64,000 bases of DNA from the NCBI GenBank assembly GCA_963924555.1, contig OZ004587.1, positions 2,356,001-2,420,000 of the forward strand, read 5' to 3'. The position numbers and the translations under genes are program-made. Shown here in pieces: positions 23,585 through 50,872 of the stretch (position 1 is the stretch's first letter; every line of letters starts with the position of its first letter). Source of the DNA: Crambe crambe. Lineage: Eukaryota; Porifera; Demospongiae; Poecilosclerida; Crambeidae. Under the pieces are notes generated by a model. It saw nothing but the letters and a program-made list of their open reading frames with translations, was not told the DNA's origin and made no database searches.

Positions 23585-24549
23585 TCAGAGTATTGTTATT
23601 TCAAATGACAGCACTCTCCCAGTTTTGAATTCACATACATAGAGCTTGCCATTTGTGTCCACTGTCAAACCACAGGGGTCAAAATCCTTGCATTCTTTAG
23701 GGAAGAATGACTTTACAAACCGACCATTTGATTTGAACACAGAAATGCGTTTGTTACCACGATCACTGACATATAGTATATCATTACTTCGATCAATAGT
23801 GATACCAACAGGATAATTGAATCGTCCATCACCACCACCAGACCCACCAAATGTCGATATGAAATTCCCATCAGGGCTAAATACTTTGACACGATGGTTT
23901 TCATTGTCCACCACGTATATCTTCCCATCTTTATCACAAGCGACACTTGTGGGGCAATGGAACTCTCCTTTATCACAAGCGATACATGTGGGGGAATGAA
24001 ACTTTCCTTTACTTGATCCCGACTTTCCAAGGGTTCTGCATTCACTAAGATCTTCTGCATTAAGAACATTCACTGATTTATTAAGAGTGTCAGTGACATA
24101 CACCTTATTATCAAAAATGGAAATTCCAGTGGGCCAATATGCATAACGATCTTGGTTGCTTCGGTTCGTAGTGCAGTGTACAAGTGAAGGAGACTGGCCA
24201 TCCACCAGAAACTTTTTGACACAATGGTTGTAGCGATCTGTCACCAGAATATTTCCACTTGCATCTATTGCTATCTCACTAGGTTTGTTAAGGTCTTGAC
24301 CTCTAGTCTTGGAAGCAAAAGTTCCACGTCTATAAACACATGTTAATTGAAGATTTTTATTAGGAATTGGTTCTCCGGTAGAAGTGAAAAAGTGCAGAGA
24401 GTTAGCCTCATTGTCAGCTACTATTATATGTCCTTCTTTGTCGATAGCTATTCCCCAAGGCCCCTGGACTTTATCACTGGTTAGAAAAGGATGACTCGAC
24501 TCTTCCACCACCACGTTGGGTATTCCACCTTGGTCTATCTGATAAACAC
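23585..24549 (-). CDS. G2 NHL propeller exon
   Basis: 965 nt, acceptor TTATTAG, phase-1 start, stop at 23,585. Six NHL-type repeats with the (G/L)-x-(A/T)-(V/I)-D pattern: QGPWGIAIDKEGHIIVADNE, LNKPSEIAIDASGNILVTDR, WPTGISIFDNKVYVTDT, CPTSVACDKDGKIYVVDNEN, YPVGITIDRSNDILYVSDRG, FDPCGLTVDTNGKLYVCEF. Blade 4 is preceded by a small internal duplication (FHSPTCIACDKGEFHCPTSV) not present in G1. The best known relatives are the propellers of TRIM2/3/71 and Brat. Confidence 0.9.
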
Positions 24550-27500
24550 CTAATAACAAAATTAATGTGATAGTCTCCCAAAAAAAAATAAATCATGAGT
24601 CACATATTTTATATTGATCACTTGTTCATACCATTCCAATAATAATTATTTACTAGTTTATTATAGGCCAATTACCTTAGTACAGAATATATTTTTATAA
24701 TTTTGTAGCACTACATGCTTCAAATGTTGGAGCAATTAGGTAATGCAAATCATTTTGTATATACTAAAGCCTAATTTGCTGCTAATGAAATCCTCGAAAT
24801 ACAGACCAATGAAGACTGAGAAGTATGCATTACATGAATCCAACCAAGAATACCATAAAAACACTTATGTTATATTATGAAATGCATTTCCGGTTATATT
24901 AACAGCGACATAAAATAGATCATCATAATATTTTGACAAAACTGTTTTTACTGTGAAGGAAGTTCTGCAGCAGTTGTTAACCCTCTGCGCATGCGCAAGG
25001 GTTATTCAGTTTGTCTGTCTGTCTGTCTGTTACAACTATTCCAGAGCCAGCGGCACTTACCACACTTCAACTTCAGTCTCAACGATGTCTAGACGATACT
25101 CTTGAGTGTTTATATTGAGCGGATTTTTGGAAAAGGCTTTATTCCAGTAAGAAGGACACAATTCCAGCTCCGCAACTCTGTGCTGCCAACTCCATCTAGG
25201 CCATACTGTAAGGTAAGTTGATAGAGCAACAGCATATATCTCATAGCCAGCAGTATCTTTAGTGATAAATCTATGACGGTGGCTTCATGCATTTAGGTAG
25301 CTGCTACTGTTTACCTGCATGCTTAATCATATCTGTGCAGTTTTCCAAGTAGAATATTTGTACATGCAGGCACTGATAATGAGAATGTGGAATCTGTAGT
25401 ACAGATACTGCTAGCTAGCTCAACAGTATGGAACGCTTTATAGATGATCATTCAAACTTAATACTCCTCATTGGTGATCTGCTCAATATCTGACACAATT
25501 GATTATTATTATTGTATGCAGAGGGTTAGCACTTCAGTGCTTTTTTGCCTCGGCACCAGAGTACCAAGGCACAGTGCCGAAGGTGACTATCTATATATCT
25601 ATGATGGTATGTATTAATAGCGCACGCAATGATGCGCAGTGATGCATAACGAGCACGTGCATTAACAAGCTCTCAAGCTAGCTAGCTAGCCAACAAGCTC
25701 TACAGTACTAAGACAAACAGACACGCTCAGGCTCAGGCTCACAGTCACTACGCAACCGTGAAGAGAGTGCTGATGCTTCTTTGCCAACAAATCAAGCCTA
25801 TGCAGAGAAGACAGCAATGAACAAAAACAACAGATTGCAATGTACACGCCAAAGAGAGAGCCATGTTGAATCCAGTACACATACTTCAATCAAGCTATGC
25901 GAGAGAATCATTCAAAACGGGCAGTTTGAAAGCATTGAACAGCAAGAATACTAGCTGTGTAAATACCAACCTTACTACAATAAGCCATGTTGCTCAGTGC
26001 ACATTATTTAGAAAGTTTAATAATAATAAAGGTTGCACTGAAGTCATGCCGAGGCATTCCTAGTCCTTTTAAAAGACTAATTTGTTCATTATTCTAGTGA
26101 AGTGGTTATGATAGGAAATCTTTGTTCATTTTTTAATAAAGTTTGTTATGATGATGTGTTTTACGTTTTACAGCATAATAATTATTAGTGATCTTTTTAA
26201 GGCCCCTAACATATAGTGGAGCAAAACTGAAAGAAGAAGAATATGAATGGGTGGTCAAAAGTAGACATTGGTTGTCGATAATAACGCCATAGAGTTGATG
26301 TACCAAATTAAGCATAACTAGGGCAATGTACAACATTTGAGTCACAGCGAGCGAGCAAGCAAGTATTCCTATAGGCTTGCTGATAGCTATTCATTTGTGC
26401 TTTCAACTCCTTGGAAGTAAGTTGGCAGGCAGCTTACATAGAAAACTGTAATGCTTACCTCAAAGCACTTAGATAAGCCTAATACTTACAAGCCGCTTAG
26501 ATAAGGCTTGAGCCTGCTTCCCAAAAAGGCTGTAGAGATGTTGAACTGATAGTTGATTTGTGCTTTGCTGTTGAGTTATGTAAGTGGCAGGCAGCTGCAT
26601 GCAAGTACTTACCACAAAGCACTTAGATATGTCTAGTGCCTACAATCCACTTAGTATCCACCATGCTATAAACAAAGCGATGTAGAAGTCAATCAAGCAA
26701 TTACAATTATTGCACGACATGTAGGTATGTATGTACGCCTGGGGCATTTTGGAGTGTAGACATAGATTTAAAATTTCAATGAGTCATGACCTGAGAGTCA
26801 GCTCCCTCGCTGCAACAAGTATTCGATCAAATCATGAGAATAGCAATAGCTTCCCTTTGGTTGTTGTAAGTTTTGATGACTACCAGTGAAGAAGATTATG
26901 GTGAGAGGAATACGTTTAGGGTGGCTTACGCTCTATTGTAGTTACGTATCATGATCAGATGACGACGTGGCTACTATTTATTTCATACCTCAGATAGTTA
27001 CTAGTATCGACTATGTGGCCACTTGCATACACAAATTGTTTTGCTTACAATACACTATAATGATAATTTTAAAAGTACTCTATGAGGATTTTCTATTATC
27101 AGAGAGTACGATAGTACTCTCTAAGTAGGGATGGCATGGATCACCCCATTGGACTAATACTTAGTATTTTCTTTCATAACTTCCCTCCTACAATTAGCAA
27201 CTCCTAACTTGGAGACAGAACACAAGTATAAAGAGCAGAAGACAAAGCAGTATCATTTTACAGCGACTTTAAAAATCACCGTTTTCACCTGGTCGTTCAT
27301 CATCATCATTAAACAACTTATTCAGAAATGGTTCACTCAAATGCTATAATTTTTATATCAAACGACTCAAAATAATTATTAACTGCGCTCCTTTAACTCG
27401 ATATGTTCAAAAATAGCTCGTCATCTTCCAACTTGCTAGCTTTCAACCTACGTGGCAGATCTTGGATCTTGACCCCACAACTGACTAGCGAATCTGTCAT

Positions 27501-30500
27501 TTAATAGCTTTCTCTCTTGATGTTGGTCTCTCGATGCTTAGAGTGTAAACCCTAGGCACTAGTCTGGTTAGGAATCAAGCCTTGATGCAACAGTATATCA
27601 GGTACATATCAGTAAAGAGTTTAAAAAATATATATACAAAATTAGGTCAATGGCAATCTTATAGACAGCATGTCCTTCCAAATCAGATTCATTTCAGCTC
27701 ATACAACCATTGAACTACATAGCTACAATACATGGACTTCAACTTGGATAGCAGGACCACAGCATCCAGTTGCCTATAATAAAATAATAGATCATTACAT
27801 CAAAAAGGGTGATGAACAAGAAAAAATATTTATTCTAAATAATAAAGAAAAGTAGGGATGGCTGTGTGCGGTTCAAAACGTTCAGCAACAAGAGAGTGAA
27901 CTTCAGTCAAGTAACCCCTTACCCATCACCAATATTACCAAGCTACAAGCTACTTGACTGAAGTTCGCTCTCGATCTCTTGTTGCTGAATTTTTTGAACC
28001 ACACACAGCCATCCCTACTTTTCTTTTTTATTTAGAATAATCAAAATAGAACCTCTTAAAATTACACTCACTAGCAGTGACACTCACCCCACTTGTTTTT
28101 TTTATTTCTCCACCTACTAAAAAAATGAATAGTAATTTTATCATATATACCAAATAGAAAAATTAATGTTTTAGAGCTTTATTCATCCCTCCTCAGTACA
28201 TACTACCATCTTCAGCCATGCTAAGCAGGATGCCATTTTCTTTTCTCTATGTAGCATAATATGTAGACCACTGCTACATTATAGGTAATTGCTCTATTTT
28301 AGAGGTACAATAATTATCATACATGAGAATTGATAATATGGCATGAAACAAAACCCTTTGCCTATGATTATAAAGGGTGTGTAAACTGTAAAAAGTGAGG
28401 GATTTACCATACTATGATGATAGCAATGATGACACCAATGATGACGAGGATGAGGATCGAAAGTATAACCGGAAGTGTGGGATCAACAATCGAATCAACA
28501 TTAGCTGCATTAAAATAATAATAATAAGGCTTTTTTTTTCAAAGACTAAAAGTAAATAATATTGCATGAAAAATAATTCACTGACTCTCAGGTCATGAGA
28601 TTGAAATTGTAGGTCTACACTCCATAATGCATGTATGTGTCCCATTAGTAGTGTCCTGTGCATGTGTAATGTACATGCTCCATTTATAATTGCAATAGGG
28701 TTAGGCTAGGTGCTTAATGTTTGATTCAATGAAAAAGTATGTTATGTGATAGTCTTGGGTAAGGGCAATGCGTAATATTTGAGTCACAGCAAGCGAGCAA
28801 AGTATTCCTATAGCTTGATACATAATGCTCACTATGAGACTAGAGGGCAAGGCCAGATGAAAAGATTTTGAAAAGAAGCCACTCAAGGCAAGAGTTATGG
28901 CACTTTTTAGCCATTCAATCGCTTGATTGATGGCTAGAAGCAATCAAGACTCAGGAGTGTTGCCTTTTCTGATCAAAATCTCTTCGTTTGGCCCTGCATC
29001 TTGGTTTGCATAATTGGAATAAGCACAAAAGACTATCAACACAAGGTTGCTGCTTGAAAATTTTGACGACAAAAAAAAAATCGATCAAAGCATGGCTTGA
29101 GTTTCTCTGAAACGGTAGCTTCTACAGTGTCTAGTTTGTCCTCAGTTGTAGAGTAGTAGGAAGAGGTAATCAGTATGAAACTGTAGTTTTCAACTATAGC
29201 ATCTCATAGTCAGTGTTACTATCTGCCTCACTAACTTATAAATAATTATTCATGAGCAAACATAAAGGGGGGGGGTGGTAACTAGCTGATATGCACACTG
29301 CTATGCAGCCCACATGGAATTGTCATTTTCGTTGTTACAATGTACAATATTATTTTTGTACACAAGATTAATTTCAATAAATAATTAAAAATGAAATTTC
29401 CCAGTTTAGGTTTCTTATTATAGCCATACATTCTTCATGATTGCTTGTCATGTTGAAAGAAGAAGTGATAGTACTGCTATTCGTTCCTGCTGAGTTGGTG
29501 GCTGTTACACGATAGTAGTATTTAGTGCCCACCATGAGATCACTTAATTCCACACTAAGGAGAAAGTTGACGCGGGTGATATTTGGACCACTGGTGATTC
29601 GGGAACTGTTCATATTCAAGTTGGACTCAGATAGTCCATATTGCACCACATAATACTCCTGATCATAAGTTATAGAGGACACAAGCCACTGCACTGTGGA
29701 ACGATTATGGAGTAAAGATTCCCTGGATATCCTCACATTCACGGGCATAGCTGGACTAGAGGCACCTATAGAGTACAAACAAAGGTAGCTTAAAACTATC
29801 TCACTCCGAGTATGAGATACGTAGAGCAAAGGAAGGCAATTTGCACTTAGGGAATCAGATGACCCAGCAATAAGATGGCCACCAATGAAATGCATGCCCA
29901 CATGCATAGTCCCCCTTCTATCCAAAATTTCTGTATGAAACCCTGCTCAAACATAATTGACTATTGTTTCACTTCATCATTGATGTGTGGTCCAATTCTC
30001 TATCCATATTACAAATTCAATTTAGCCATACTATGGCGTTATAAGTATAACAAGTTAGTCTTTTAAAAGACTAGGAATCCCTCGGCACAACTTCAGTGCA
30101 ACCTTTATTATTGTTAAACTTTCTAAATAATGCGCACTGAGCAACATGGCTTATTGTAGTAAGGTTGGTATATGGGATTTGTTTAATATACAGGTACAAC
30201 CCTGTATTCCTAACTACACCACATCTATCCCTTAGAATATTCAAGCCTACAATATTAATTAATACGCATTATCAATGATTTACCAATGATACTTTGAGTC
30301 TGTGAGGAATTACTAGTTATGATATCAGGGGCTGGAGAGACATCCAGAGTCACTGTGCAGGTGTAAGTGTGGATTCCTGCTTCAGTGGCATTGATGGAAA
30401 GTACACTACTTCCACTGGTAATTGACTGACTGCCAGTAAAGAATTCAGCAGAGATGTTAGATGAGGATCCCCCTATGGTATGCTGCCAGCTAAAAATTCT

Positions 30501-33500
30501 GCTAAGATTAACTGGAGTGCCTCCAGCAGTTATGATAGCTGAGCAGATGAAAGAGAGACTGTTATAAGGGGCAATGTTCAGGTAACGGGTTAACACAGGA
30601 TTCACAGGATCCAAAGAAATATCGATCCTTGGTTCTACATATTAAATTTGGAAGGTTAGTAACATAATACATCAATACATACTATACATGTATGTCCCCC
30701 CCCCCCCCCCCCCTCCCTCCCCCGTCAACCAAAAATTAATCAATAGTCCCTTGTTAGCAAAGAAAAAGATCAGCTTTATCTTTGGCTATAACCATAGTTA
30801 GCAGCGATCTTGCAACATGAAATCCAGAATTTACATAGCCTTCTTCTAAATGACTTTGGAGTTGGGCTACTTGAAAGGAGGCTATGTAAATTTTGGTTTT
30901 GCTGTTCATTATGCTTTTTGGCTTCCTTATTTTAATTCCAGTTGTATAAAGTCATTATTCTTTTTTTACTAACCTATTATTCTTTAATTATGCTCGTAGC
31001 TGATGTCATTATGTATTGAAAGACTACGTAAATAGCTACTTACTATCTCACTAGCAGACAAGTTTGGTCAATCTAGGCTAGCTAGTGTAGGCACACATGA
31101 TAAATACATTCAAGATCAACAACCATGAAGTTCACTTTCAATAGCCTATTATGCCAGCATTATGCTTCCTGCTTTGATTGCAGATTGCCAATCTGCTGTA
31201 CTCATTATGGAGTAAGAGAGAACCGAAAGACATGCAGCTGACTTAATTAATTAGCCACAAAGAGTTGTTTCTTATGATGACTCTATATAATTATTATACA
31301 GGATCACTATTCAAAAGAAGTAATGAAGGTTCAAGAAAAGAGAATGCTTGAATAAAAGAGTATAGACAATGCTGACAGTCACATTTTTTATCACTGCATG
31401 CCACCATGAAAGAATAGCTCTTCAACAATGCAGTGCAAGTTTCTAGTATAGACATACCGTACAGCAGGATAATTTCGGTGGGATAAAAACGGTAATTTCG
31501 GTAATCAGTTTATCTATCGAATATTTTCTATCAAATTTTTTTCCAAATAAAGCCACCGTTTAGACATTCGTACATTCAACTGAATTACGGCACTATACAT
31601 AACCTATGTAACCTTCTGGTCCACTTTCTTCTTAGCTATAATAATAGCTAGATTCCATCAAATAAGAAGTCACAATGATCGTGAAGAGGGCTATACCTGA
31701 AGAAATGAAGGCCAAAAATAGTATGGAAGCCAAGTGAAAATGGAGATTCAGCAGCTGTAAAGCGAAGTCCATAGATATTGTTGCACACGTGCTAAAATAA
31801 TCATAGCTACCGAATAAAAGACTTACCGTAATTCTTCATCTGTCTCGTCCTTTGATGATTAACAAAATATTTTATCTCCGAAAAAAACCCCGCTGTACGG
31901 TAATACCATCAATCATTGGAATTACAACTACCTAGCTAGGCATTATTTGTTTTGCACAATAATTATTATGCTTATTTTTCGTTGGGCTTCCTACGTATAT
32001 CCTATGAAAATTATAATTGTCGTTCTACCCTCAACACCTTGAAACTTTAAACATCTGAATATTATACAGTTAAACATGCATAGCAGCAAAATACTTACTA
32101 GAGACTGAAATATCTCTGGTTTGTTGTGGTGTTCTTATGAGTACCATATTGTCAGACATGATTGTAGCGTTGCAGTGGTAACTGCCTGCATCTTGTGTAG
32201 TCATGGGGTGAAACTCCAACAAGCGCTGAAATCTGTTTCCTCTTCTGACTAACATGACTTCACTCAGCTGCACATTGTTTGAGTTGCGTCGGATGCCAGG
32301 CCCTGAGAATGAGATATCCACTTCAACTTCCTCAATTCTGGGAGTGCTTAGCAGGTATGTCAAAGTACAACTGTAATTGATATTCAATCCAATATAGTTT
32401 ACTCTTGAAGCAATTGTTGTTTGTCGCTGAATTAATAGTGTATGATCTGCAGAAAATAAGAAAAATGGATTAGTACTGGTGTTACAATAACCTGGTTTTT
32501 TGTTAGCTTTTTTTTTTTTTTTTTTGGTTTTTTGTTTTTTGTTTTAACCAGAGTTCATAGTACACATTAGTTATCCCATGTGTAATAGAAGTCAATCCAT
32601 TAGCTATTATGTATAATAATTATTATGCATGAGCACTATAGTAGCACTGGGTAGGAACAAGGGGGGGCCACAGGGGCCAGGGCCCCCCCCCCCCCCATTA
32701 TTTTCAGACAGGGGGGCAGGGCCCCCCTATTTAATTGCAAAGTACTAGGACTGAATGTCAATAAATTACTTTGGAGTTTGATTTTTTTCTAGAAACTAGT
32801 CAGTAGTGCCAACCCCCCCCCCCCCCCCCCCCCCCCAGTAAAATAGGCGTGGTCTTAACTAAAACTTAGGTGGCCCCCCATTCAAAATTATCTTCCTATG
32901 CCACTGAGTAGCTAGCCTAGATGAACCTCTTTTGCCTTCAGGACAGTATTATTGGAGTATATTACTTTTAAATTAGTGGTTCAACAAGTGCTTGTATTGG
33001 GTGGCTCAAGAACTAGTCTAGAATTACTTTTAGGCAACATACTGGCAAGCAGTGTAGAGCAGGTAGCACTTTTCTCATTCAATGGACTCTGATGCTTCTT
33101 TTATTTTATTTGCTAGTGTTGTTTATGGATAGTTTTGGTGCTGTAAAGTGCATAAAAGCAGCTACAGCTGCAGGTATTTTTTCCTACAGCCAAAGGATGA
33201 TGTGCACTATTTAGAAAATTTTGTTGCGTGCATATGGCGAGCTATGCCATCTTAAATTTCTCAGCCATTATAATATGCCCTGAATTGGGCAACTGCATAC
33301 TAAGTAGAAAAAAATTACTTCTGAATAAGCAACACGAACGTCACACCAGAATTTCGAACTAAAGTCAGGCAGAAGCTAGTTTCTTGTTTCCTGATGCTAC
33401 GAAACGACAATTAAAGTCCAGAGAAGAGCAACAAGGTAGCACAGATAGCTTAGTTAGTAAGCTTATAAGCTAGAAAGCCTACCTTAGTTCTGGTGACATG

Positions 33501-34721
33501 ACTCTCTTGGATTCTCCATGGTGGCGACGCACAAAGCTTTCTGAGCTTTCATGGCTGACTAGCTAGCTATATTTGAAGCCTTTCTACTCTAAGCTCCATA
33601 AATTTAAATTTCTACTTCAGATCTAAAATTTTAAAAATAATTTCAATAGGTAGCTAGCTACATAGAGAAAGGAAAATGTCATCCTACTAACCTAACCGAA
33701 CTATCTGTATTTTCTCAGTAAAAGCTGAGAACTAGAAGATGGCATAATTATATTTTTTGGCTCTAGTACGACTATAAGATGGGAAGGACAAACCTCTAAG
33801 AGTGCAGAAACATCACATTATTTACATTACTACTTTTAGTGTTATTATTATGTAGGGATGACGGGCAAACTGGTCAAAAAAGAGTTGGAACAAGGGCCGA
33901 AAGGAATGAGATTATGCAAAGATTATACACTGTAAAAATGAAAGTATGTACTGCACACTAAATTGTCCCAATACACACACTAAAAACAAAACAGTGTGTG
34001 TATTGGGACAAAATGGTGTGCAGTAAACACTTTTGTTTTTACAGTGTAGGCTATAATTCTTTTTAAGTATGCTCTGGAATCTGAGAATCTTTCTGGAATA
34101 ATACAGAGATCTTGGGAATCATAACACATGAAATTGGAAGGCAAAAAAAATCCTAGATCCCACACTTTGTGCGGTCAGTCAATGTATGCCTAGTATTACG
34201 TCCTAAAATTGTCAGTTAGCAGGGTTTATTCCAGGGAGGGCCAAGGGGGGCTTCCCCCTAAAGAATAGCTTACCCTAGCTTTCCTAATGAGATTATCATA
34301 GAATTCCACATAATGTACTGGTTTGTAGTTGCCCTTCCTCATTTTTTTTCCACTAGGCATTTGCCCCCCTCAAGCAAAATTAGTACAGATGTGTGACCTT
34401 GAAAGTGCAAGCTAGAAGAATGAAGTCAGATCTGGGTGCTGTCACTAGACCAGTCATTCCTACATCACCTTTACATAATATTATAGTTTTTATTGTTTTT
34501 GTTGTTTTGGGTTTTTGTGCTCACTGACATAATTTCAATGAGTCATGACCTAAGAGACAACTTTGCTTTCTCACTGATTAATAGTCCATGTAACCATGTA
34601 ACTATTCCTTATTGCTTGGATAATGATACTTACTTTGAGCTGACACACGAGGGGAATATGTCATAATCAGAATAGTCACTCCCATTATCAAGGGCTGGAG
34701 ATAACTCCTTCTTGACTTCAT
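23585..34721 (-). CDS. G2: putative Ig-Ig-FN3-TM-NHL receptor
   Basis: Seven exons: 34,721-34,634; 32,446-32,099; 30,634-30,284; 29,765-29,430; 28,504-28,408; 28,113-28,088; 24,549-23,585. All junctions use GT-AG with consistent phases (1,1,1,1,2,1), and the sum is 2211 nt, that is 736 residues plus stop. Order: signal peptide (1-29), Ig1 (30-145), Ig2 (146-262), FN3 (263-374), TM (about 386-406), basic juxtamembrane piece WRNKKNKWG, six-repeat NHL propeller (about 416-736). Positive residues after the helix predict the NHL part inside the cell. Known NHL propellers bind RNA or protein; Ig/FN3 domains are typical of adhesion and recognition receptors. That the NHL exon belongs to this gene is inferred from phase, strand, order and the parallel case of G1; the last intron is long (3.5 kb) because of repeats. 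The alternative is two adjacent genes. Confidence 0.65.
24979..25526. mobile_element. TIR-like repeat with AACCCTCTGC ends
   Basis: Starts with the near-palindrome AACCCTCTGCGCATGCGCAA and ends GCAGAGGGTTAGC. A (GTCT)n microsatellite at about 25,012-25,031 and no coding content. A similar hairpin (AACCCTTGTGAATGCGCTGA) is at about 17,011. It lies between the juxtamembrane and NHL exons of G2. Confidence 0.55.
25540..26085. repeat. Dispersed repeat with inverted copies at 36.53-36.99 and 30.05-30.17 kb
   Basis: The unit runs from TTTTTGCCTCGGCACCAGAG to CATTCCTAGTCCTTTTAAAA. Reverse-complement matches: 36,530-36,985 (about 460 bp, e.g. ATTCAAAACGGGCAGTTTGA versus its mirror) and 30,052-30,165 (only the last 110 bp). 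Confidence 0.8.
26312..26755. repeat. Dispersed repeat, copy 2 of 17.9-18.3 kb
   Basis: Collinear with 17,915-18,345; see that entry. The following 26,760-27,100 matches 42,600-42,790 downstream of the G1 juxtamembrane exon, which shows the G1 and G2 introns are homologous. Confidence 0.85.
27103..28041. mobile_element. Non-autonomous DNA element, copy 2, with empty site in G1
   Basis: Begins TCAGAGAGTACGATAG and ends in a hairpin (27,831-28,040) finishing TTATTTAGAATAATC. In the homologous G1 intron (about 43,128-43,160) the flanks GAGGATTTTC.ATTA and AGAAC.TCTTAAAATTA are joined directly, so the element inserted here after the duplication. Reverse-orientation relative of 10,081-11,420. Confidence 0.8.
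28088..28113 (-). CDS. G2 juxtamembrane micro-exon
   Basis: 26 nt, acceptor TTTAGTAG, donor GTGAGT, phases 2 to 1. It encodes (W)WRNKKNKW(G), strongly basic. The equal-length micro-exon in G1 supports it. Confidence 0.65.
28408..28504 (-). CDS. G2 transmembrane exon
   Basis: 97 nt, acceptor AATGCAG, donor GTAAAT, phases 1 to 2. It encodes NVDSIVDPTLPVILSILILV then IIGVIIAIIIV: a polar stalk then one helix of about 21 residues. Confidence 0.85.
29430..29765 (-). CDS. G2 fibronectin type III exon
   Basis: 336 nt, phase 1 to 1. Conserved Trp (VQWLVSS), YVVQYGLSES and KYYYRVTATNSAG. Acceptor CTCTATAG; donor GAAT/GTATGG, which is weak but is the only phase-1 donor that keeps the frame and is shared with G1. 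Confidence 0.85.
30284..30634 (-). CDS. G2 Ig-like domain 2 exon
   Basis: 351 nt, phase 1 to 1, acceptor ATATGTAG, donor GTAAAT. LSFICSAII, IFSWQHT and TEAGIHTYTCTV mark the two cysteines and the core Trp. Confidence 0.88.
30696..30713. repeat. Poly-C run
   Basis: Eighteen C in a row in the Ig1-Ig2 intron of G2, followed by CCT-rich sequence. Confidence 0.9.
31455..31902. mobile_element. MITE with TACCGTACAGC ends, in the G2 Ig1-Ig2 intron
   Basis: Left end TACCGTACAGCAGGATAATT and right end (reversed) TACCGTACAGCGGGG; 448 bp without coding content. Related by its ends to 12,437-12,990. Confidence 0.85.
32099..32446 (-). CDS. G2 Ig-like domain 1 exon
   Basis: 348 nt, phase 1 to 1, acceptor TTTTCTGCAG, donor GTAAGT. 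First Cys in NYSCTLTYLL, second in TTQDAGSYHCNATI, about 65 residues apart. No canonical core Trp is evident. One extra codon compared with G1 and G3 near the N-terminus (QTTIAS). Confidence 0.88.
32504..32840. repeat. Homopolymer-rich insertion in G2 intron 1
   Basis: A poly-T run (about 32,509-32,525), a poly-C run near 32,687-32,697 and a 24-base poly-C at 32,813-32,836, around sequence of the GGGGGGCAGGGCCCCCC type. Most of 32,648-32,905 is absent from the homologous place in G3. Confidence 0.75.
33928..34046. mobile_element. MITE of the CACTGTAAAAATG family, empty site in G1
   Basis: About 50-bp arms: CACTGTAAAAATGAAAGT ... TTGTCCCAATACACAC mirrored. In the homologous G1 intron near 50,160 it is missing, so it inserted after the G1/G2 duplication. 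Confidence 0.88.
34634..34721 (-). CDS. G2 signal-peptide exon
   Basis: 88 nt of coding sequence from an ATG at 34,721 to donor GTAAGT (after CTCAAA). It encodes MKSRRSYLQPLIMGVTILIM then TYSPRVSAQ: basic n-region, hydrophobic core, cleavage likely near the SAQ. It ends in phase 1, matching the Ig1 acceptor. The same exon is present in G1. Confidence 0.75.

Positions 34722-40478: not shown

Positions 40479-40527
<49 letters not shown>
40479..40527. repeat. (CAA)n microsatellite
   Basis: About 16 CAA units; a shorter, imperfect CAA-rich run sits at the same place downstream of G2 (23,410-23,480). Confidence 0.95.
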
Positions 40528-40534
40528 AATAATA

Positions 40535-40800
40535 ATTCAATAGAATTAGTTCTCATAAAATTAACTTATGAAACAAATCACCAAATAAGCTATTTTATGA
40601 GAACTAATTCTATTGAATTTTTATCATGTTAGCTGAGAATAATAAGCAGAACAAAATAATACTTAATAAATTTAATATTAATATTTAATAGTAATAAATT
40701 TATTGAATTGAAATAAGCTAATTTTATGAGAACTAATTCTATTGAATTTTTATCATGTTAGCTGAGAATAATAAGCAGAACAAAATAATACTAAAATGAT
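40535..40800. repeat. Inverted and direct repeats of an AATTCTATTGAATTTTTATC unit
   Basis: The unit starting TTTTATGAGAACTAATTC occurs at about 40,595-40,668 and 40,712-40,790, and inverted at 40,536-40,560. The same family reappears at 51,400-51,600. Confidence 0.85.
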
Positions 40801-40869
40801 AATAATGTAAAAAATAGGTCATTAGCTTAGTAGTGATAAAGGTTTAAAAAGTGAGTGGCTTTCTCTAGT

Positions 40870-41741
40870 TCATATATCAAATGACAGCACTCTCCCATTT
40901 TCGAAGTCACATACATAGAGCTTGCCATTTGTGTCCACAGTCAAACCACAGGGGTCAAAATCTTTGTATTCTTTAGAATGAAATGACTTTACAAATCGAC
41001 CATTTGATTTGAACACAGAAATGCGTTTGTTACCACGCTCACTAATGTATAACATATCATTGCCTCGATCGATAGTGATACCAACGGGACGATCAAATTG
41101 TCCTTTACCTTTACCAGATTTACCAAATGCTGATATGAACTTCCCATCAGGGCTAAACACTTGGACACGATTGTTATCATAGTCCACCACATATACCTTC
41201 CCATCTTTACCACAAGCAACACTTGTGGGGCAATGGAAATTTCCTTTCCTTGATCCAGACCTTCCAATGGTATCACGTTCACTAAGATCAGTTGCATTAA
41301 GAATACTCACTAATTTATTAAAAGTGTCAGTGACATACACCTTATTGTCAAAAAAGGAAATTCCAGTGGGCCAATAATTTTCGTTCAAATCTTGGTTGAT
41401 TTTGTTCTTACTGCAGGGTACAAGTGAAGGAGACTGGCCACCCACCTGAAACTTTTTGACGCAATGGTTGTCGCGATCTGCCACCAGAATATTTCCACTT
41501 GCATCTATTGCTATCTCGTTAGGTTTGTTAAGGTCTTGACCTCCAGTCTTGGAAGCACCATGGTTATAAACATATGCTAATTTAAGAGTTTTAAAATTTT
41601 CTTCTCCAGTGGAAGTGAAAAAGCGCAGGCAGTTAGCCTTATTGTCAGCTACTACTATATGTCCTTCTTTGTCGACAGCAATTCCCCAAGGCCCCTGGAC
41701 TTCATGAAAAAGACAACTTGACTTTTCAATCTGATAAAAAC
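40870..41741 (-). CDS. G1 NHL propeller exon
   Basis: 872 nt, acceptor ATTATTAG, phase-1 start (G/GT), stop TGA at 40,870. Six repeats: QGPWGIAVDKEGHIVVADNK, LNKPNEIAIDASGNILVADR, YWPTGISFFDNKVYVTDTFN, HCPTSVACGKDGKVYVVDYD, RPVGITIDRGNDMLYISERG, DPCGLTVDTNGKLYVCDFEN. Compared with G2 the segment between the acceptor and the first blade is shorter by about 15 residues. Confidence 0.9.
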
Positions 41742-44700
41742 CTAATAATAAATGTGATAGTCCTGAGTAAAAATTATTAGATACAAAATAATTAATTTCT
41801 ATATTGATAACTTCCTCATACCATTCCAATATTTATTCAGATTTAGCTACTAGTTCATATTATTTTCGATTAACTTACAGTACAAGATGTAACTATAATT
41901 AATTTTGTAGTGGTAGGTGACTACAAATATAATTCAGCAGCAACCACTCTATAGTACTGTCTGTTTAGTTAACTTCTTTTTTCAATCACAAATAATCATA
42001 ATGCCAAATGTTTCAGCTGAAATGCCTCAGTCATCATTAGGGCTTACATAAATAAAAATGAAATTGTTTCACTCTATAGTAGTTAGCTAGAGTAGCTGTA
42101 CCTCCCACAGACAAAGGCATAAAATTACGGAGCCAAAAATTATTGGCTGCAGCCTAGCCATGTTTGACTTGTAAGAGACATAAACCACACCCACTCACTA
42201 ATAACAATAATGTTGAGGAATAGTTACTTCAGAGCAGGTACTGGGGGGAAGCTTCCCCCCCCCCCCCCCCCCCCCCCCCCAAAGTAATTCATGAAATTTA
42301 GTTATAAGCAGCCATAGGTACATGTTGATTTTTTTTCTCCTTCCAATACTGAGTGATACTTCTGAATTCAGTTTATCTGGTCCTTCTATACTTATTCGCA
42401 TTGTATGATGGTTTCTTCACCAAGTCTGTGCACATTATTCTTAGCTGCCATTAGCTAATATACCAATGTAAGTGCAGAATAAATAAATAGCATGCAGTGC
42501 CTACAAAAGTGGGTGTGGTCAAGGATTCCAAGGCGTTCTTCCCCCCCCCCCCCCCCCCCCCAAACAAGAAATCCTAGATGAAACCCTGCAGAGCTACATG
42601 TACCAGATTAAGCATAACAAGTATTCAACATGAGAATAACAATAGCTTCCCTTTGATTGTTGTAAGCTTTGATGACTACCAGTGAAGAAGATTATTGGTG
42701 AGAGAATACTTTCTGGGTGGCTTACAATATGTATATACCTCAGGTATTAGTATTGACTATAATGATAATTAGTGAGCGAGAAGTGATGCATAATTATGTC
42801 ACATTTAATATGCATGCTCATACATTAATTTTGTTTGACCTTTGACCCCTCAAACAAAACGTGCCCACAACAAACAGATATATAGAACTTATTGCATTTT
42901 GTCATAGAGGCCCTAGGTAGATTGTAGGCTCTTGGCTTTCTAAGTGCTTATGGTAAGCAAACAGCCTCCAGTGTATGCAGCTGCCACCACCACTTCATCC
43001 TGACAGCAATATCTTAGCCTAAGAAGTTAAAGTACAAATGACTTTCACCAACTTCTTTGCTCGCCAGTTGATCGAATATGTTACGCGAATATACCCTAGT
43101 TTTACAAGTACCTTAGTGTACGTATGAACACGAGGATTTTCCATTACAGAACTTCTTAAAATTATACTCACTAGCATCAGACACTCACCTGATCTACCCC
43201 ACTCGTTTTTCCACCTACTAAAAAATAAATAATTTGATTATACATGACAAGTAGAAAAATTAATTATATAATGTGATGTTTACAGGCACTCTAGAGCCTT
43301 TATTCTTTCCTCCTTCTTCCCTCCTCAATACATACTGCCAAAAATTATATGCTATCTTCAGCCATGCTCAGGATGCCATTTTCGTTTCTCTATGTAGCAT
43401 ACTATGTAGACCACTAATATGCTACACACATTATACGTAGGTAATTCCTCTATTTTTTTAAGGTACGTACAATATCAATAGATAATACAGCATGAAACTA
43501 AACCCCTTGTCTATGATTTATAATATTAAAATTTATTTGAAAGGGTGTGTAAACTGTAATAAGTTAGTCTTTTAATGTCTCGGCACGTAGTAAACTTATT
43601 ATCATTTGGTTATCACTGATTTTTTGCAGGTATATAAATAATTATAGGAGTCACACTGAGGACTGAAGATCTTATTTTTTGCATGCACTGTCATTATCAC
43701 ATCATAGTTTTTTGTTGTTGTTGTTTTTTGTTGTTGTTTTTTGTTAATGCTATTCATAGTATTTTTAAAGTGAGCAAGCTTTTATGATAGTCATAGCTAT
43801 AGCTCGGTTCTCGTTCAGCTACTTAATTGTGACATTGTAGCTTCTGTTCTCGCTATTAAAGGGCTTTCTTGCAGGATCGATCTCTTGCTATATAGATGAT
43901 CTTGAGCTTTGTACCCTCTGCGCTATTTTTCATGCTGGTTTTCTTGCTTACTTTCTGTTATTATAACATGCCTGCTCTTGCAGCTTGGCTCTCTTTCTGC
44001 TTTCTCATAACTCAGAGTCTTAACTCAACTTTGTAGCTTCTGTTATTTAAGGCTTACTCTTGCTGTTCAGACAATTGAGGTTTATACACTCTGGTCTCAC
44101 TGTTTGCTCTCAGACAATTGTTAATTTTCCCAGCCTGCTGTTTCTTACATACTAAGGTCAAGGTCATGCGCATGTGAATAACTATTTGTGCGTGCTACTA
44201 ATAAGAATAAGACATACGTACCCTACCATAGTTGCCTTCGGCACCAGAAAATATATTTAATGAGAGATTTACCATATTACGATGATAGTAATGATGACAC
44301 CAACAATGATGACGAGGAGGATGAGGATCGGAAGTATAATCGGAAGTGTGGGATCAACAATCGAATCAATATTAGCTGCATTAAAAAATGAAATAGCATA
44401 AAGTATTCATTTTTTTCAAAGACTAAAAAGTAAATATATTGCATGAAAAATAATTCATGCAAGCAAGCTGACTCTCAAGTCATGAAATTGAAATTGTAGG
44501 TCTACACTCCATAATGCATGTAGTGTCCCATTAGTAGTGTCCTGTGCATGCATAATGTACATGTTCCATTTGTAATAGCAATAGGATAGGTACTAAGGCA
44601 AGAGTTATGGCACTTTTTAGCCATTCAATCGCTCGATCGATGGCTAGAAGCGATCAAAACTCAGGGTTAATCTCTTTGTCTGGCCCTGCAGCTTGGTTTA

Positions 44701-47700
44701 TACAACTGGAATAAGCACAAAAGACTATTATCAACACAAGGTTGCTGCTTGAGAATTTTGACGACCAAAAAATAATCTATCGAAGCATGGCTTTAGTTTC
44801 TTTGGAACAGTAGCATTCTACAGTGTTTGGTTTGCCCTCAGTTGTAGAGTAGGAAGAGGTAGTCAGTATGAAAATATACATAGTCTTCAACTATAGCATC
44901 TCGTTATTACTCGCCTCATTAACAATTAACTCATGAATTATTCATGAAAAAATTCCAAAGGGGGTGGAACTAGCCGATATATATGCACACTGCTATGCAG
45001 CCCACATGTTGAATTGGGAAATAAATTTCAATTTCGTTGTTACAACTTTAACTTTTATATATACATATTTTGTACATGGTTTTTTTCTTTGCTGAATAAG
45101 AATAAATAATTTTAACAATAGGTTTCTTAACATAGCCATACATTCTTCATGATTGCTCGTCATGTTGAAGGAAGAAGTGATAGTACTGCTATTTGTTCCT
45201 GCTGAGTTGCTGGCTGTTACACGATAGTAATATGTAGTGCCCACCATGAGATCACTTAATTCCACACTAAGGAGGAAGTTGACACGGGTGATATTTGGAC
45301 CACTGGTGATTGGGGAACTGCTCATATTCAAGTTGGACTCAGATAGTCCATACTGCACCACATAATACTCCTGATCATAACTTATAGAAGACACGAGCCA
45401 CTGCACTGTTGAGCGACTATGGAGTAAAGATTCCCTGGATATCCTCACATTCATGGGCATAGCTGGATTAGAGGCACCTATAGAGTACGAACAAAGGTAG
45501 CTTAAACTATGCCACTCCAAGTATGAGATACGTAGAGCCAAAGGAAGACGATTTGTACTTAGAGAGTGCAGTAGCTATAATGTAGGGAATCGGATGACTC
45601 AGAAATAAAATAGCCACCAGGTATTCATGTTTGCCAACTTTAAATTCATGCTTTGAAGCCTAAAATACACACTCTCTTTTAGATGCTAATAAACACTCAA
45701 CAGGGTTTCATACAGTGGAGGGAGAAATTCCCCCTCCCCATAAACCAATTACTGAATATGTGTCTTAAAAATAGCACATTTTTCCTCACACAAGTACGCC
45801 CACATGCATAGTCCACCCTCTATCCAAAATTCCTATATGAAACCCTGCTCAACATATTGACTATTCTTTCACTTCATCATCATTGATGTGTGGTCCAATT
45901 CTCTAGCCATGGTACAACTTCATAGCTCTACCATAATCATTCCAATACATCTACAGATTGATGGGCCCAATAAAGTTAGATTATGATACAGTGGAACCTC
46001 CGATGAAGGACCCTCCAAGAAAAGCACAACCTCCCAACAAAGGACACTCATTGGGCCCCTTTAACGTACCTCTGAGAAAAGGACAAAGTGGCTAATCCTG
46101 AATTGTATTGGAAGTTCTACTGTAGACTATAAGCATTTCAATTTTGTGGTTAATGGGATTTGTTTATACAGGCACAACCCTGTATTTCTAACTACACCAC
46201 ATCAATCCCTTGCAACATTCAAGCCCATAATAATACACAGCAATTAACAAATAAGCATTATCAATGATTTACCAATGATAGTTTGAGTCTGTGAGGAATT
46301 ACTAGTGATGATATCAGGGGCTGGGGAGACATCCAGAGTCACTGTGCAGGTGTACGTGTGAATTCCTGCTTCAGTGGCATTGATGGAAAGTACACTACTT
46401 CCACTGGTACTTGACTGACTGCCAGTAAAGAACTCAGCTGAGATGTTGGAAGAAGATCCCCCTATGGTACGGTGCCAGCTAAAAACCCTGTGAAGATTAA
46501 CTGAAGTGTCTTGAACAGTAATCATAGCAGAACAGTAGAAGGAGAAGCTGTTATAAGGAGCAATGTCCAGGTAACGACCAGCCACAGGATTCACAGGATA
46601 TAAAGAAATATCGATCCTTGGTTCTACATATTAAATTTGGAAGGTTAGAGGTTAGTATCATAATACATCAATACACACTATAGATCCTCCACCCAAAATC
46701 AATCATTAATAAAACCTCGATACCTTGAAACTTGAAACATCTGAATATCAGAGAGTGCGGTAAGAATAATATAAACTGGACTCTCTGTATCTCTTCTATT
46801 CTTGCTACAGGCTCAACTAAATTTCTTACATCTGGAAAACAATGCAGAAAATAATGATATGTCTGCTCAAACTCCTCCAGAACAGCGTCAACAATAGGCG
46901 TCTAAATCTAAAATTTTTATGATTGTTCATCATTATCAGATTCATCAGATTTTTTTTTTTTTTTTTGACGGCTATAACTCCATGATCCTTTCACATACGA
47001 CAATCAAATTCATATCAATTGATGAAGTTATAATCACACATTGTGCTTTTACCATCGTTATCCACACAGTTTTCCTCCAAAATAATCAGTTATATCGATT
47101 CATTATAAACGATATTATGTCAGCCATTTTGAAATTAATGACGTCATTTGTCACGCGCAAGCATCTGTCACGATCACATGCATGTACACGCGTGCCAACC
47201 AGTAGCTAGCTCTAAATAAAAAATGAGGTCACATAAAAGGTAAACAAACAAGTGAATGGAAAAATTATGCTAAATAAAAAGGCCATGTAGGCTTAGTCTG
47301 TACTTTTACCTATAGCAATTTCTGTGAATAAAATTATGCTGCCTTCAATAATAATCCCTACATCACTGCCTAAACCAAGCAGAACTTTTACACTGACATG
47401 AACAATTAAAGCAGCTTGGTGGGAGGCAGTGATGTAGGGATTATTATTGAAGGCAGCATAATTTTGATGTTTCACAGAAACTGCTATACATAAAAGTACA
47501 GACTAAGCCTACATGGCCTTTTTGTTTAGCATAATTTTTTTTCCTTTCATTATATTATTACGGTTAAGATAAGTTAAACATGTATAACAGCAAAATACTT
47601 ACTAGACACTGAAATATCTCTGGTTTGTTGTGGTGTTCTTATGAGTACCATATTAGTAGACATGATTGTAGCATTGCAGTGGTAACTGCCTTCATCTTGT

Positions 47701-49463
47701 GCACTCATGGGGTGGAACTCCAACAAGCGCTGAAATCTGTTTCCACTGCTAAAGAATAGGACTTCACCCAGCTGCACATTGCTCGAGTTGTCTCGGATGC
47801 CAGGACCTGAGAATGAGATATCTACTTGAACTTCATCAACTCTGGGAGTGGTTAGCAGGTATGTCAAAGTACAACTGTAACTGATATTCAATCCAACATA
47901 GTCTACACTTGAAGCAATTGTTTGTCGCTGGATTAACAGTATATAATCTGCAGAAAATAAGAAAAATGATTAATACTGGAATGGTATTGCAGTAACCCCA
48001 CAACCTCCCGTTTTTTTTGGTTTGTTAGTTTAATCAGAGTTCATAGCACACATTACCCCATGTGCAATGGTAGTTGGGTGCTCCATAGATCACATGAGCT
48101 CAGCCATTATAAATATCTTTTGCCTTCAGGACAAATTAGTAGTTGAACGAGTGCTTGTACTTGGTGAGTAATACAGGTAGTTTTCTCAAAAAACATAACT
48201 TGAGTTGTTAAAAGTTAATTGGTACTGCAACTGTCATCCATACATAACTACTCCAAAAGCTACGTACTTAAGGGTTAATTTCTCCTCATACCCAGGCCCC
48301 AATTTTTTCATGGGGCCTATAGCTAGGAGTGTTAAGGACCTAGGTTAGGCAACATGCTGATTTGCTAGTGTTATTAATGGTGCTGTAAAGTGCATAAAAG
48401 CAGCTACAGCTGCAGGTATTTTTTTTTCCTACAGCCAAAGGATGGTGTGCAGTATTTAGAAATTTTTGTTGCCAATATCATAAAAGAGCTATGCCATCAT
48501 TTCTCAGCCATTGCTCATGTAGTGCTCAACATTACACCATGATTAAATAATTACAAAGGGAACTGCATATTAAATAGAAAAAAAAATTTTTTTGAATAAT
48601 TAAGGGTGGTGGCACATCTCGCCCACACATGGTTGCTAAGGGGTCATATCACCAAAACTACTTGCACCATAGACTTTAAACTGCACATGGCTATAAAGCA
48701 GCTTAGTAATACTACACACACACAAAAAAAGAAGAAGAAAGGTCAAATCCTACAGGTGCTATGAACAGTTTTCAAATTCAAACTAAAAAGCATTACTTCT
48801 CACTAACCACCAAACTTCACTGGCTGATTTTTGGTTTGTAGCTTTCTAGCACCACTCTCTACAAAATCACAGAAGGGTTTGTTGATATCTATTTTGCTTC
48901 TTGATTTAACCCAGAAACTTAAATACTCACTTTTGGGAAGTCAAAAAGTAAAAAAGATACCAACAAATCCTTCTGTAATTTTGTAGAGAGGGCTACTAAG
49001 AAGCTCTAGGCCAAAAATCAGCCACTTAATTCCAGCGGTCAGTGAGAAGCAATGCTTTTTATCTCTAAAGAGTAAAACGACTCATAGCACCTGTAAAAAT
49101 TAACCTTTTTTCTTCATTTTTAGTGTGTATATTAGTGATATACTACCTTATAACTTGTGCAATTTGAAGTCCATAGCTATAGTAATTTTGGAGTTATGTA
49201 AGAAAGACTAAAATTTAATTGTTAGCACGTGCGTTGCTATGTGCCACCACCCTTAAGCAACATGAATGTCATGCCGGAGTTTCAAACTAAAGGTCAGGCA
49301 GAAACTAGTTTCTTTAGTCTATATTTTCAAGCGCAAGCTTATAAGCTGGAAGGCCTACCTTAGACATGACTTCTTGCTGTTTGGATTCTCTGCACACGAA
49401 GCTGACTAGCTAGTTTTAGCACTATGTTTGAGCCTTTCCAGGGCTGTATTCAGATATTTTACT

Positions 49464-49494
<31 letters not shown>

Positions 49495-50872
49495 GGCAAA
49501 GGAAAAGTGGATCTACACATGGTATAGATGACCGCATGGCCATAGGGAGAGGGGGAGGGTGCAGGAGGGGGATGTACCCCCTCCCACGCAGAGCGCAAAA
49601 GAAAATTTTACTTGTTTTGGAGGACTCGTTGTTGGCTAATTCTCCTACCATTTTCATAAGTGCCAATTTTTGTACTGAGTTAAAGAATTGTACTAAGTGC
49701 TCTCTGAGAGTGATCTGGAAGAAATTGTGGATGCATGGCAGAGAAAGATAAGTCATTATTAGCTGCTCATTTTTAATTTAAAATCTCTAAATTTAAAGAG
49801 GGACAAGATTAACTCAAGGGGGGTAAGTGCCCCCCTGCGCCCCCCCCCCCCCCTAAATGCACCCCTGCTTTCTACTTTAGTCTAAGCTCAAAAATATTTG
49901 AAGCCTTTCTACTTTAGCTCTAAAACATTTTTTTGCATAATCTATCTATGCAGAAAAGAAAATGGCACCCTGCTAGCCTCACCAAACTATCAAAGCAATG
50001 GCTGAGAACTCTAGAAGATGGGATATAATTTTTGGCTTTAGTACAACTATATAAGATGGGAAGAATAAAGCTCTAGAGTGCCTGTAACAGCAGAATCATT
50101 ACATTACATTACTACTGGCAAAAAAGAGTTGAAACAAGGTCTATGGCTCCTGCAGATTATGCTAGCATAATTTTTTTGGTATGCTCTGGAATCTGAGAAT
50201 TTTTTCAGAGATTTTGGGAATCATAGCACATGAAATTGAATCCAAGAAGGCTAGATCCCACACTTTGTGCAGTATGTGGTCAGTCAACATATGCTAGCAT
50301 TAGTGTAAGCAAGGCCTAAAATTGTCAGTTAGCAGGGCTAGCTAACTAACCCCACCCCCTAGGAATTGGCTAGCTTTCCTAATGAGATTATCATAAAATT
50401 CCACATAATTATATGTAGTTGTCCCTCCTCAAATTTTTCCACTAGGCATTTACCCTCCCCCCAAACAAAATTCTGAATTAAACTTGTTAGTATAAACTGA
50501 TGTGTGACCTTAAAAGTGCAAGCTAACAAGAATGAAATCAGATCTGGGTGCTGTCACTAGACCAGTCATTCCTATATATCACCTTTTTTCCTTTACATCT
50601 ATTAGAGTTGTTTTTATTTTTTATTGTTATTTGCTTTTGTTTTTTTTTGTTGTTATTGTTGTTTTTTTGTGCTGACTGATAATAATTTCAATGAGTCATG
50701 ACCCTGTAAGAGACAACTTTGCTCTCTCACTGATTAATAGTCCATGTAACTATTCCTCATTGCTTGGATAATGATACTTACTTTGAGCTGACATACGAGG
50801 GATATAATATGTCATAATCAGAATAGTAACTCCCATTATCAAGGGCTGGAGATCACTCCTTCTTGACTTCAT
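40870..50872 (-). CDS. G1: putative Ig-Ig-FN3-TM-NHL receptor
   Basis: Seven exons: 50,872-50,782; 47,947-47,603; 46,623-46,273; 45,477-45,142; 44,375-44,273; 43,214-43,189; 41,741-40,870. Phases are the same as in G2, and the sum is 2124 nt (707 residues plus stop). Layout: signal peptide (1-30), Ig1 (31-145), Ig2 (146-262), FN3 (263-374), TM (about 386-408), juxtamembrane WKNEWGRSG, NHL propeller (about 418-707). Both Ig1 cysteines are present. The juxtamembrane-to-NHL intron is 1.45 kb, the shorter of the two cases, and no other terminal exon was found in it. Predicted type I membrane protein with the propeller in the cytoplasm (inference from the signal peptide and the single helix). Transcript evidence would be needed to prove the last junction. 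Confidence 0.68.
42255..42280. repeat. Poly-C run
   Basis: 26 C in a row after GGGGGGAAGCTT; a second run of 21 C is at 42,541-42,561. Both are in the G1 intron before the NHL exon. Confidence 0.95.
43189..43214 (-). CDS. G1 juxtamembrane micro-exon
   Basis: 26 nt, acceptor TTTAGTAG, donor CAG/GTGAGT, phases 2 to 1. It encodes (W)WKNEWGRS(G). Confidence 0.65.
43570..44240. repeat. Inverted copy of the 18.96-19.6 kb repeat
   Basis: In the G1 TM-to-juxtamembrane intron. Reads in reverse complement to 18,960-19,600; GTTTTTTGTTGTTG runs lie near 43,710-43,745. Confidence 0.65.
44273..44375 (-). CDS. G1 transmembrane exon
   Basis: 103 nt, acceptor AATGCAG, donor GTAAAT, phases 1 to 2. NIDSIVDPTLPIILPILILL then VIIVGVIITIIVI: one helix after a short polar stalk. 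Confidence 0.85.
45142..45477 (-). CDS. G1 fibronectin type III exon
   Basis: 336 nt, phase 1 to 1; VQWLVSS, YVVQYGLSES, TYYYRVTASNSAG. Donor GAAT/GTATGG as in G2. Confidence 0.86.
46273..46623 (-). CDS. G1 Ig-like domain 2 exon
   Basis: 351 nt, phase 1 to 1. FSFYCSAMI, VFSWHRT and TEAGIHTYTCTV give the Cys-Trp-Cys core. Confidence 0.88.
46750..47550. repeat. 800-bp block shared with 15.34-16.13 kb
   Basis: Same block as in G3 but in the Ig1-Ig2 intron of G1. It contains the complete foldback MITE at 47,267-47,531. Confidence 0.85.
47267..47531. mobile_element. Foldback MITE, complete copy
   Basis: Ends ATGCTAAATAAAAAGGCCAT and, mirrored, ATGGCCTTTTTGTTTAGCAT; the arms pair through GTAGGCTTAGTCTGTACTTT and further through the CTGCCTTCAATAATAATCCC part, about 120 bp each. 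Confidence 0.92.
47603..47947 (-). CDS. G1 Ig-like domain 1 exon
   Basis: 345 nt, phase 1 to 1, acceptor TTTTCTGCAG, donor GTAAGT. SYSCTLTYLL and SAQDEGSYHCNATI carry the two cysteines. Confidence 0.88.
48604..49252. mobile_element. Foldback element with TTAA target sites, G1 intron 1
   Basis: TTAA at 48,600-48,603 and 49,253-49,256 flank GGGTGGTGGCACAT and its mirror. Arms of about 300 bp are imperfectly complementary. The homologous place in G2 (near 33,325) reads GAATAAGCAACACGAA without it. TTAA choice is known for piggyBac and Kolobok transposons. Confidence 0.85.
49464..49493. repeat. Poly-G run
   Basis: 30 G in a row. The low-complexity Gly- and Pro-rich open frames over it on both strands are artefacts of the run. 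Confidence 0.95.
50782..50872 (-). CDS. G1 signal-peptide exon
   Basis: 91 nt from ATG (50,872) to CTCAAA/GTAAGT, phase 1. MKSRRSDLQPLIMGVTILIM then TYYIPRMSAQ. The frame stays open further upstream, so an earlier start cannot be excluded, but only this ATG gives a typical signal peptide and is shared with G2. Confidence 0.75.

Follow-up and report, generated by a model that had tools for sequence, protein, structure and literature searches.

Can a sponge receptor whose outer part is built from immunoglobulin-like (Ig) and fibronectin type III (FN3) domains carry, on the inner side of the membrane, a propeller of the NHL type? The question is raised by a 64,000-nucleotide stretch of the Crambe crambe genome (GenBank assembly GCA_963924555.1, contig OZ004587.1, here C10; C10:2356001-2420000, hereafter the window), in which two neighbouring genes, designated G1 and G2, place an NHL exon behind exons for two Ig domains (Ig1 and Ig2), one FN3 domain, and a transmembrane (TM) helix, with a very small juxtamembrane (JM) exon in between. 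Genome searches with the Ig1, Ig2, FN3, and NHL exons as queries cover the 143-Mb assembly of 119 contigs. On contig C15 of this assembly, six copies of a silicatein-like active-site motif lie within about 12 kb, against none in the reversed control, and the two flanks that were translated resemble a silicatein by eye, as suits a demosponge. A receptor-NHL fusion, with Ig, Ig, FN3, TM, JM, and NHL in one chain, is likely real; the observation is one of gene structure, which predicts a single mRNA holding all of these exons.

Gene models and loci

An earlier account of this DNA (the sequence-only reading) described two tandem minus-strand genes with the same exon order, GT-AG borders, matching phases, and total lengths of 2124 and 2211 nt, and re-splicing reproduces all of this exactly. 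Both G1 (window positions 50872-40870; 2124 nt, 707 aa) and G2 (34721-23585; 2211 nt, 736 aa) comprise seven GT-AG exons and are open throughout. The exons are as follows, in window coordinates and with the evidence in brackets; G4, G5, and NHL6 are introduced below.

50782..50872, minus strand: G1 exon 1, holding the start codon and a signal-peptide-like sequence (splicing; close counterparts in G2, G4, G5, and ahead of NHL6)
47603..47947, minus strand: G1 Ig1 exon (splicing, Pfam)
46273..46623, minus strand: G1 Ig2 exon (splicing, Pfam)
45142..45477, minus strand: G1 FN3 exon (splicing, Pfam)
44273..44375, minus strand: G1 TM exon, exit phase 2 (splicing)
43189..43214, minus strand: G1 JM mini-exon, 26 nt (sole right-phase cassette of the intron scan; alternative acceptor 3 nt off)
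40870..41741, minus strand: G1 NHL exon and stop codon (splicing, Pfam)
34634..34721, minus strand: G2 exon 1, holding the start codon and a signal-peptide-like sequence (splicing)
32099..32446, minus strand: G2 Ig1 exon (splicing)
30284..30634, minus strand: G2 Ig2 exon (splicing)
29430..29765, minus strand: G2 FN3 exon (splicing, Pfam)
28408..28504, minus strand: G2 TM exon, exit phase 2 (splicing)
28088..28113, minus strand: G2 JM mini-exon, 26 nt, WRNKKNKW (splicing, cassette scan)
23585..24549, minus strand: G2 NHL exon and stop codon, stop-to-stop frame without methionine (splicing, Pfam)

A segmental duplication unites G1 and G2 over most of their length, and hence their agreement is inherited and the two copies are not independent evidence. 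Three further loci on the same contig, G3, G4, and G5, repeat the exon succession Ig, Ig, FN3, TM, JM, NHL of G1 and G2. G5 represents a diverged lineage and encodes an intact protein of 723 aa. The description of two genes is thus right in that both are present, but too narrow, as at least five such loci lie within a larger receptor cluster. Receptors of this cluster fall into class A, with Ig1 at least 58% identical to that of G1 (G1 included), and class B, with 41%–50% identity; G1–G5 are the class A members with Ig1 identity of at least 75%, and each has the NHL exon downstream on the same strand. The continuous Ig-Ig-FN3-TM-NHL chain first read from G1 and G2 stands on the gene structure of G1, G2, and G5 and on exon order in G3 and G4, while the coupling of ligand to effector that was attached to it stays conjectural.

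An early FN3 donor, AGC A/GT, occurs in all five loci and was dropped; later donors were adopted because the early one would truncate the end of the FN3 domain, and the later ones reproduce the earlier totals. Two conserved blocks were not accepted as exons: that at window 48.36-48.51 kb is interrupted in every frame, in G1 as in G2 and G5, and that at 49.25-49.31 kb is too short for judgement.

In the arrangement proposed here, G1, G2, and G5 would be type I receptors: behind a signal peptide, the ectodomain would consist of two Ig domains and an FN3 domain, and a single TM helix and a short JM linker would lead to a predicted six-bladed NHL propeller as cytoplasmic tail. Recognition of a ligand or cell contact outside would be relayed by the propeller, serving as a protein docking platform inside and acting without a RING ligase of its own; both the cytosolic location and the relay are what we infer from the sequence.

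Domains and membrane topology

Pfam NHL scores far above its cut-off (spliced G1, E 6e-39; G5, E 2e-35), with six NHL stretches in each of the G1 and G2 exons and, at E 0.05, five in spliced G1 and four in G5. Six blades of the receptor NHL align in order with those of TRIM71. The TEN_NHL profile is also above its own cut-off, though far below the NHL score, and neither spliced protein, G1 or G5, is matched by a Pfam profile for RING or B-box.

For the ectodomain, Ig1 and Ig2 of G1, G2, and G5 show by eye the Cys pairs, the Trp, and the Asp-x-Gly-x-Tyr-x-Cys hallmarks. Pfam ig passes in G5 (28.2 bits against a cut-off of 21.8) and is the sole Ig profile to pass in spliced G1 and G5, Ig profiles being below cut-off for the Ig exons of G2 and G3 and for spliced G1. 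Within spliced G1 and G5, the FN3 exon scores above cut-off for Pur_ac_phosph_N and below it for fn3; when exons are taken singly, G2 clears the fn3 cut-off of 25 with 26.2, and G3, with 24.3, falls just under it.

A hydrophobic TM segment is present in all five loci, and the signal peptide was assessed by eye. The 20 residues after the TM segment carry net charges of +1, +3, +4, and +4 in G1, G2, G3, and G5, respectively, and sequons number 10, 12, 11, and 10 before the TM segment in these four as against 1, 2, 2, and 0 after it. A position of the NHL propeller inside the cell fits these charges and counts. The sequence-only reading had reached the same placement from the basic residues after the helix; post-TM charge and the concentration of sequons before the TM segment lend it weight, and it remains a deduction from sequence.

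The TM-JM-NHL junction

The TM exons of G1–G5 all exit in phase 2 after TG, with the donor GTAA. The acceptor used for the NHL exon is TATTAG in G1–G4 and TTGCAG in G5, and at this acceptor the exon is entered in phase 1 in G1 and G2 and in phase 0 in G3, G4, and G5 (the G4 phases were taken from exon frames because a frameshift in Ig1 alters the summed phase). At the used acceptors, a direct TM-to-NHL join is out of frame in five of five loci; with the JM exon, which exits in phase 1 in G1 and G2 and in phase 0 in G3, G4, and G5, the frame is recovered in all five, and this is the strongest argument for one transcript. G1 and G2 have a JM exon of 26 nt, G3 and G4 one of 46 nt, and G5 one of 37 nt; in every case it has a GTGAGT donor and a net positive charge. 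Compared with G2, G3 is longer by 20 nt in the JM exon and by 22 nt at the 5′ end of the NHL exon; neither figure is a multiple of three, and their sum is 42. In G5, the JM acceptor of G3 and G4 has been lost, and the frame is preserved by the AG that follows nine bases later, which G3 and G4 have as well.

The TM-to-NHL introns were also scanned for open cassettes of 15–80 nt lying between an AG preceded by a tract of at least 60% pyrimidine and a GTAAGT or GTGAGT donor. Cassettes of any phase number 6, 6, 10, 13, and 1 in G1–G5, and those of the right phase 2, 2, 3, 5, and 1, of which the JM exon with its alternative acceptors makes up 2, 2, 2, 2, and 1. The JM exon is the sole right-phase cassette in G1, G2, and G5, with one other in G3 and three others in G4. 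A conserved 117-bp block in the G1/G2 intron (42616-42725) was rejected as an exon, as it matches in all three frames and is partly repeated elsewhere; it has no counterpart in the corresponding introns of G3–G5.

Constraint on the NHL frame

The NHL frame is without stops in G1–G5, and remains so between G2 and G5 across 216 substitutions. All seven alignment gaps between G2 and G5 are multiples of three, as are all seven between G2 and G1; between G2 and G3, there is a 22-nt gap at the 5′ end, where the region is read in a different frame. In a neutral simulation that placed the observed number of substitutions entirely on G2 (4000 runs for G2–G5), the probability of no stop is 0.002 for G2–G5 (0.2% of runs), 0.028 for G2–G1, and 0.029 for G2–G3. 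With a stop-free frame in five loci, gaps in threes, and a neutral probability of 0.002, a chance open frame is thus unlikely. The dN/dS of the NHL exon is 0.48–0.84 over the six pairs of G1, G2, G3, and G5 (highest with G1), as compared with 0.30–0.56 for Ig2, 0.19–0.91 for FN3, and 0.64–1.29 for Ig1. The NHL frame thus appears to be constrained, if loosely.

The G2 NHL exon (23585-24549) also contains 39 nt that G1, G3, G5, and NHL6 all lack and that resemble the neighbouring blade start (FHSPTCIACDKGE beside FHCPTSVACDKDG).

Origin of the NHL exon

A broken TRIM gene lies on the same contig (L037, C10:1109601-1113600). It consists of a partial B-box scoring 24.0 bits (cut-off 24.1), a segment that by eye looks like a coiled coil, and NHL pieces in differing frames. 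The NHL matches listed consist of the G2 exon itself and five others on C10 at 65%–79% identity, followed by the pieces at C10:1.11 Mb (67% and 57%), with the remaining listed matches at 52% or less; among the matches listed, L037 is the nearest to the receptor NHL after the receptors' own NHL exons and NHL6. The start of its NHL shares 60% identity with G2 over 110 aa, and the match starts near the start of the receptor NHL exon. A processed receptor copy with joined exons was ruled out as the source of the 1.11-Mb NHL, which is a TRIM relic with a B-box.

The sixth NHL exon on C10, NHL6, is not behind a class A receptor and keeps a TRIM-like linker sequence ahead of the NHL.

60952..62112, minus strand: NHL6, related to the NHL exons of the receptors, its acidic repeats resembling the TRIM linker (homology)

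A coiled-coil exon at 63425-63535 on the minus strand can splice to NHL6 in phase 0; its 37 aa, used as a query, match only themselves. A copy of receptor exon 1 lies 2.4 kb further upstream, outside the window. This copy exits in phase 1 and hence cannot join the coiled-coil exon directly, and no Ig matches lie between it and NHL6.

The simplest account is that the NHL exon was probably captured from a TRIM-NHL gene of the same contig, as its C-terminal exon, and it would afterwards have been duplicated together with the receptor.

Weighing the fusion against other readings

Several points weigh against the fusion. The five loci share common ancestry, and the phase agreement therefore amounts to about three lineages, with a chance of about 1 in 27. 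Every NHL exon contains other open-frame AGs, and in all five loci at least one of these, 25–77 nt inside, would let the TM exon be joined without the JM exon, while G3 and G4 hold further AGs in phase 1; the phase argument thus rests on choosing the acceptor that comes first behind a run rich in pyrimidines or in T. By eye, the AGs 25–77 nt inside are without a good pyrimidine tract, and a join at any alternative AG would still be a receptor-NHL fusion. The JM exons are only 26–46 nt long, that of G1 is weakly basic, and the alignment of the G1/G2 JM with that of G3–G5 does not rise above shuffles; homology between the two was dropped, the alignment score being below that of shuffles. The FN3 donors were picked for phase, and those of G1 and G2 differ from those of G3–G5. 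Reading through the TM donor gives a Trp and then a stop, alike in G1–G5, so that a tailless receptor form could exist by intron retention. G3 is without exon 1 and G4 is frameshifted in Ig1, and the other six class A receptors have no NHL nearby among the matches listed. Finally, NHL dN/dS is not far under 1, above all with G1, and Ig1 reaches 1.29.

In a rival explanation, the NHL exon is part of another gene further downstream, what is left of a TRIM-NHL gene that begins with a first exon of its own, and the receptor ends after the TM segment or, by intron retention, after a short basic tail. The NHL is indeed TRIM-like, the window contains in NHL6 an NHL exon with a coiled-coil exon ahead of it and without Ig exons found upstream, and in G2 and G3 a reading retained past the JM donor runs into a stop after a short tail. 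A start of its own is conceivable in G4, where a Met lies 15 residues ahead of the propeller, which also counts against the fusion; the G2 frame, however, has zero Met in 335 codons from stop to stop, and the Mets of the G1, G3, and G5 frames are confined to the propeller interior, with none ahead of it. Nor do the JM-to-NHL introns hold a peptide common to G1/G2 and all of G3–G5 among sense frames of at least 12 codons, a length below which exons would escape; the matches at E up to 0.01 are one between G1 and G3, two between G2 and G3 (repeated DNA), and one between G2 and G4, with none for G5. Given also the phase agreement in five of five loci at the used acceptors and the shortness of the G1 intron before the NHL exon (1447 nt), a separate gene is considered rather unlikely.

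The remaining two rivals concern what the fusion does and whether it still does anything. LIN41 and Brat are cytosolic RNA binders, and a transcribed fusion could in the same manner use its tail mainly as an RNA platform that recruits mRNAs to the membrane. The closest solved NHL structure by sequence is that of fly Thin (E 3e-52), which speaks against this rival; TRIM71, TRIM2/3, and Brat follow, and the nearness of TRIM71 and Brat speaks for it. The cytoplasmic part is basic in G1, G2, and G5 (pI 8.4–9.1) but not in G3 (6.2). Set against the LIN41 RNA contacts given in passages of PMC5908797, which include eight Arg/Lys, five (R564, R581, R676, R707, and R770) are absent in all four receptors aligned and three are partly kept (R611 as K in two, K628 as R in three, and R752 as R in two), while Tyr658 and Trp660 align in all four across a one-residue gap. 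As LIN41-type contacts are mostly lost, the tail more probably docks proteins than binds RNA in the LIN41 manner, which is improbable as its main role, and other RNA-binding modes of the tail are possible; of the RNA- or protein-binding platform that the sequence-only reading named for NHL propellers, it is the LIN41-type RNA option that recedes. The last rival, that most of these loci are degenerating copies of a receptor no longer functional, with the open NHL frame as a remnant, would accord with the loss of exon 1 in G3, the frameshift in G4, and NHL dN/dS as high as 0.84. It is very improbable in view of three intact genes from two lineages and of the stop-free, threefold-gapped NHL frame across the G2–G5 divergence. 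The receptor-NHL fusion hence remains the favoured reading.

Relation to known receptors

TRIM-NHL proteins (Thin/TRIM32, TRIM71/LIN41, TRIM2/3, and Brat) share the six-bladed NHL propeller; unlike them, spliced G1 and G5 are without a RING or B-box match, and their propeller is placed behind a TM helix and an Ig/FN3 ectodomain. Teneurins, which are type II proteins with an extracellular NHL and YD repeats, are likewise membrane proteins with an NHL propeller, whereas G1 and its relatives are predicted to be type I, with the NHL inside, after the TM segment and a basic stretch. The ectodomain has a counterpart in another sponge, since passages on the receptor tyrosine kinase of Geodia cydonium describe Ig-like domains (PMC12018476); its cytoplasmic part is a kinase, where an NHL propeller is found here. 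The receptor family is thus of a known kind, and the NHL tail is what is new. No Ig/FN3 receptor with a cytoplasmic NHL was found among the papers listed in a literature search, judged by title and the start of abstracts, that covered few subscription papers and no bioRxiv preprints, in agreement, within this scope, with the earlier statement that no such family was known to that reading. If true, a receptor whose chain continues through the membrane as an NHL propeller would represent a form of signalling without precedent in that search, and it would illustrate a likely evolutionary route, in which a receptor gene takes over the C-terminal exon of a TRIM.

The receptor cluster

A clustered, duplicating Ig receptor family offers a testable candidate for the receptors of self/non-self recognition in sponges. 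Genome-wide, there are 32 Ig1 matches, 26 of them on C10:1.40-2.60 Mb and the other six on C12 and C20; the 26 related loci of this 1.2-Mb cluster divide into 11 of class A and 15 of class B. Clustered Ig-superfamily genes also make up the allorecognition (Alr) complex of Hydractinia, a family of 41 members (PMC11999971), which belongs to a different phylum and for which the passages on Alr mention no NHL tail. As a tentative suggestion, the cluster may be a sponge self/non-self or immune recognition complex of Ig-Ig-FN3 receptors with differing inner tails. Just as tentatively, one class would bear tyrosine-motif tails and another the captured TRIM-NHL, with effectors docked on the propeller reading the contact.

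The tails of nine class B loci were scanned in their downstream DNA. Three of the nine have a TM segment running in one frame into a tail with repeated YSLI/YSMI-like motifs, two have the same TM segment and an interrupted tail, three have another TM type, and one is without a TM segment in the scan; the strict ITIM pattern has no match in the three full tails. In one distal class A receptor (L033, 6.4 kb), a TM segment is seen and no NHL is found by eye in open frames, and its best JM alignment (27, against 26) is at shuffle level.

G3 lies mostly in the window. Its Ig1 exon, in which the first Ig cysteine is replaced by Tyr, is the most upstream one found:

20668..21012, minus strand: G3 Ig1 exon, exon 1 not found (homology, splicing)
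17062..17412, minus strand: G3 Ig2 exon (homology, splicing)
14734..15084, minus strand: G3 FN3 exon (homology, Pfam, splicing)
14439..14520, minus strand: G3 TM exon (homology, splicing)
13461..13506, minus strand: G3 JM exon, 46 nt, or 37 nt via the next acceptor (splicing, cassette scan)
C10:2353737-2354720, same strand as the G3 receptor: G3 NHL exon, just beyond the window (splicing)

Between the JM and NHL exons of G3, at 3522-7929, sits a long terminal repeat (LTR) retrotransposon with Gypsy-like frames by eye, whose 221-bp ends are 99.5% identical and thus point to a recent insertion. At 21768-22226 on the plus strand, opposite G3 and where the homology of G3 to G2 ends, lies a TM segment followed by a tail with repeated YSLI/YSMI motifs, of the type known from class B receptors.

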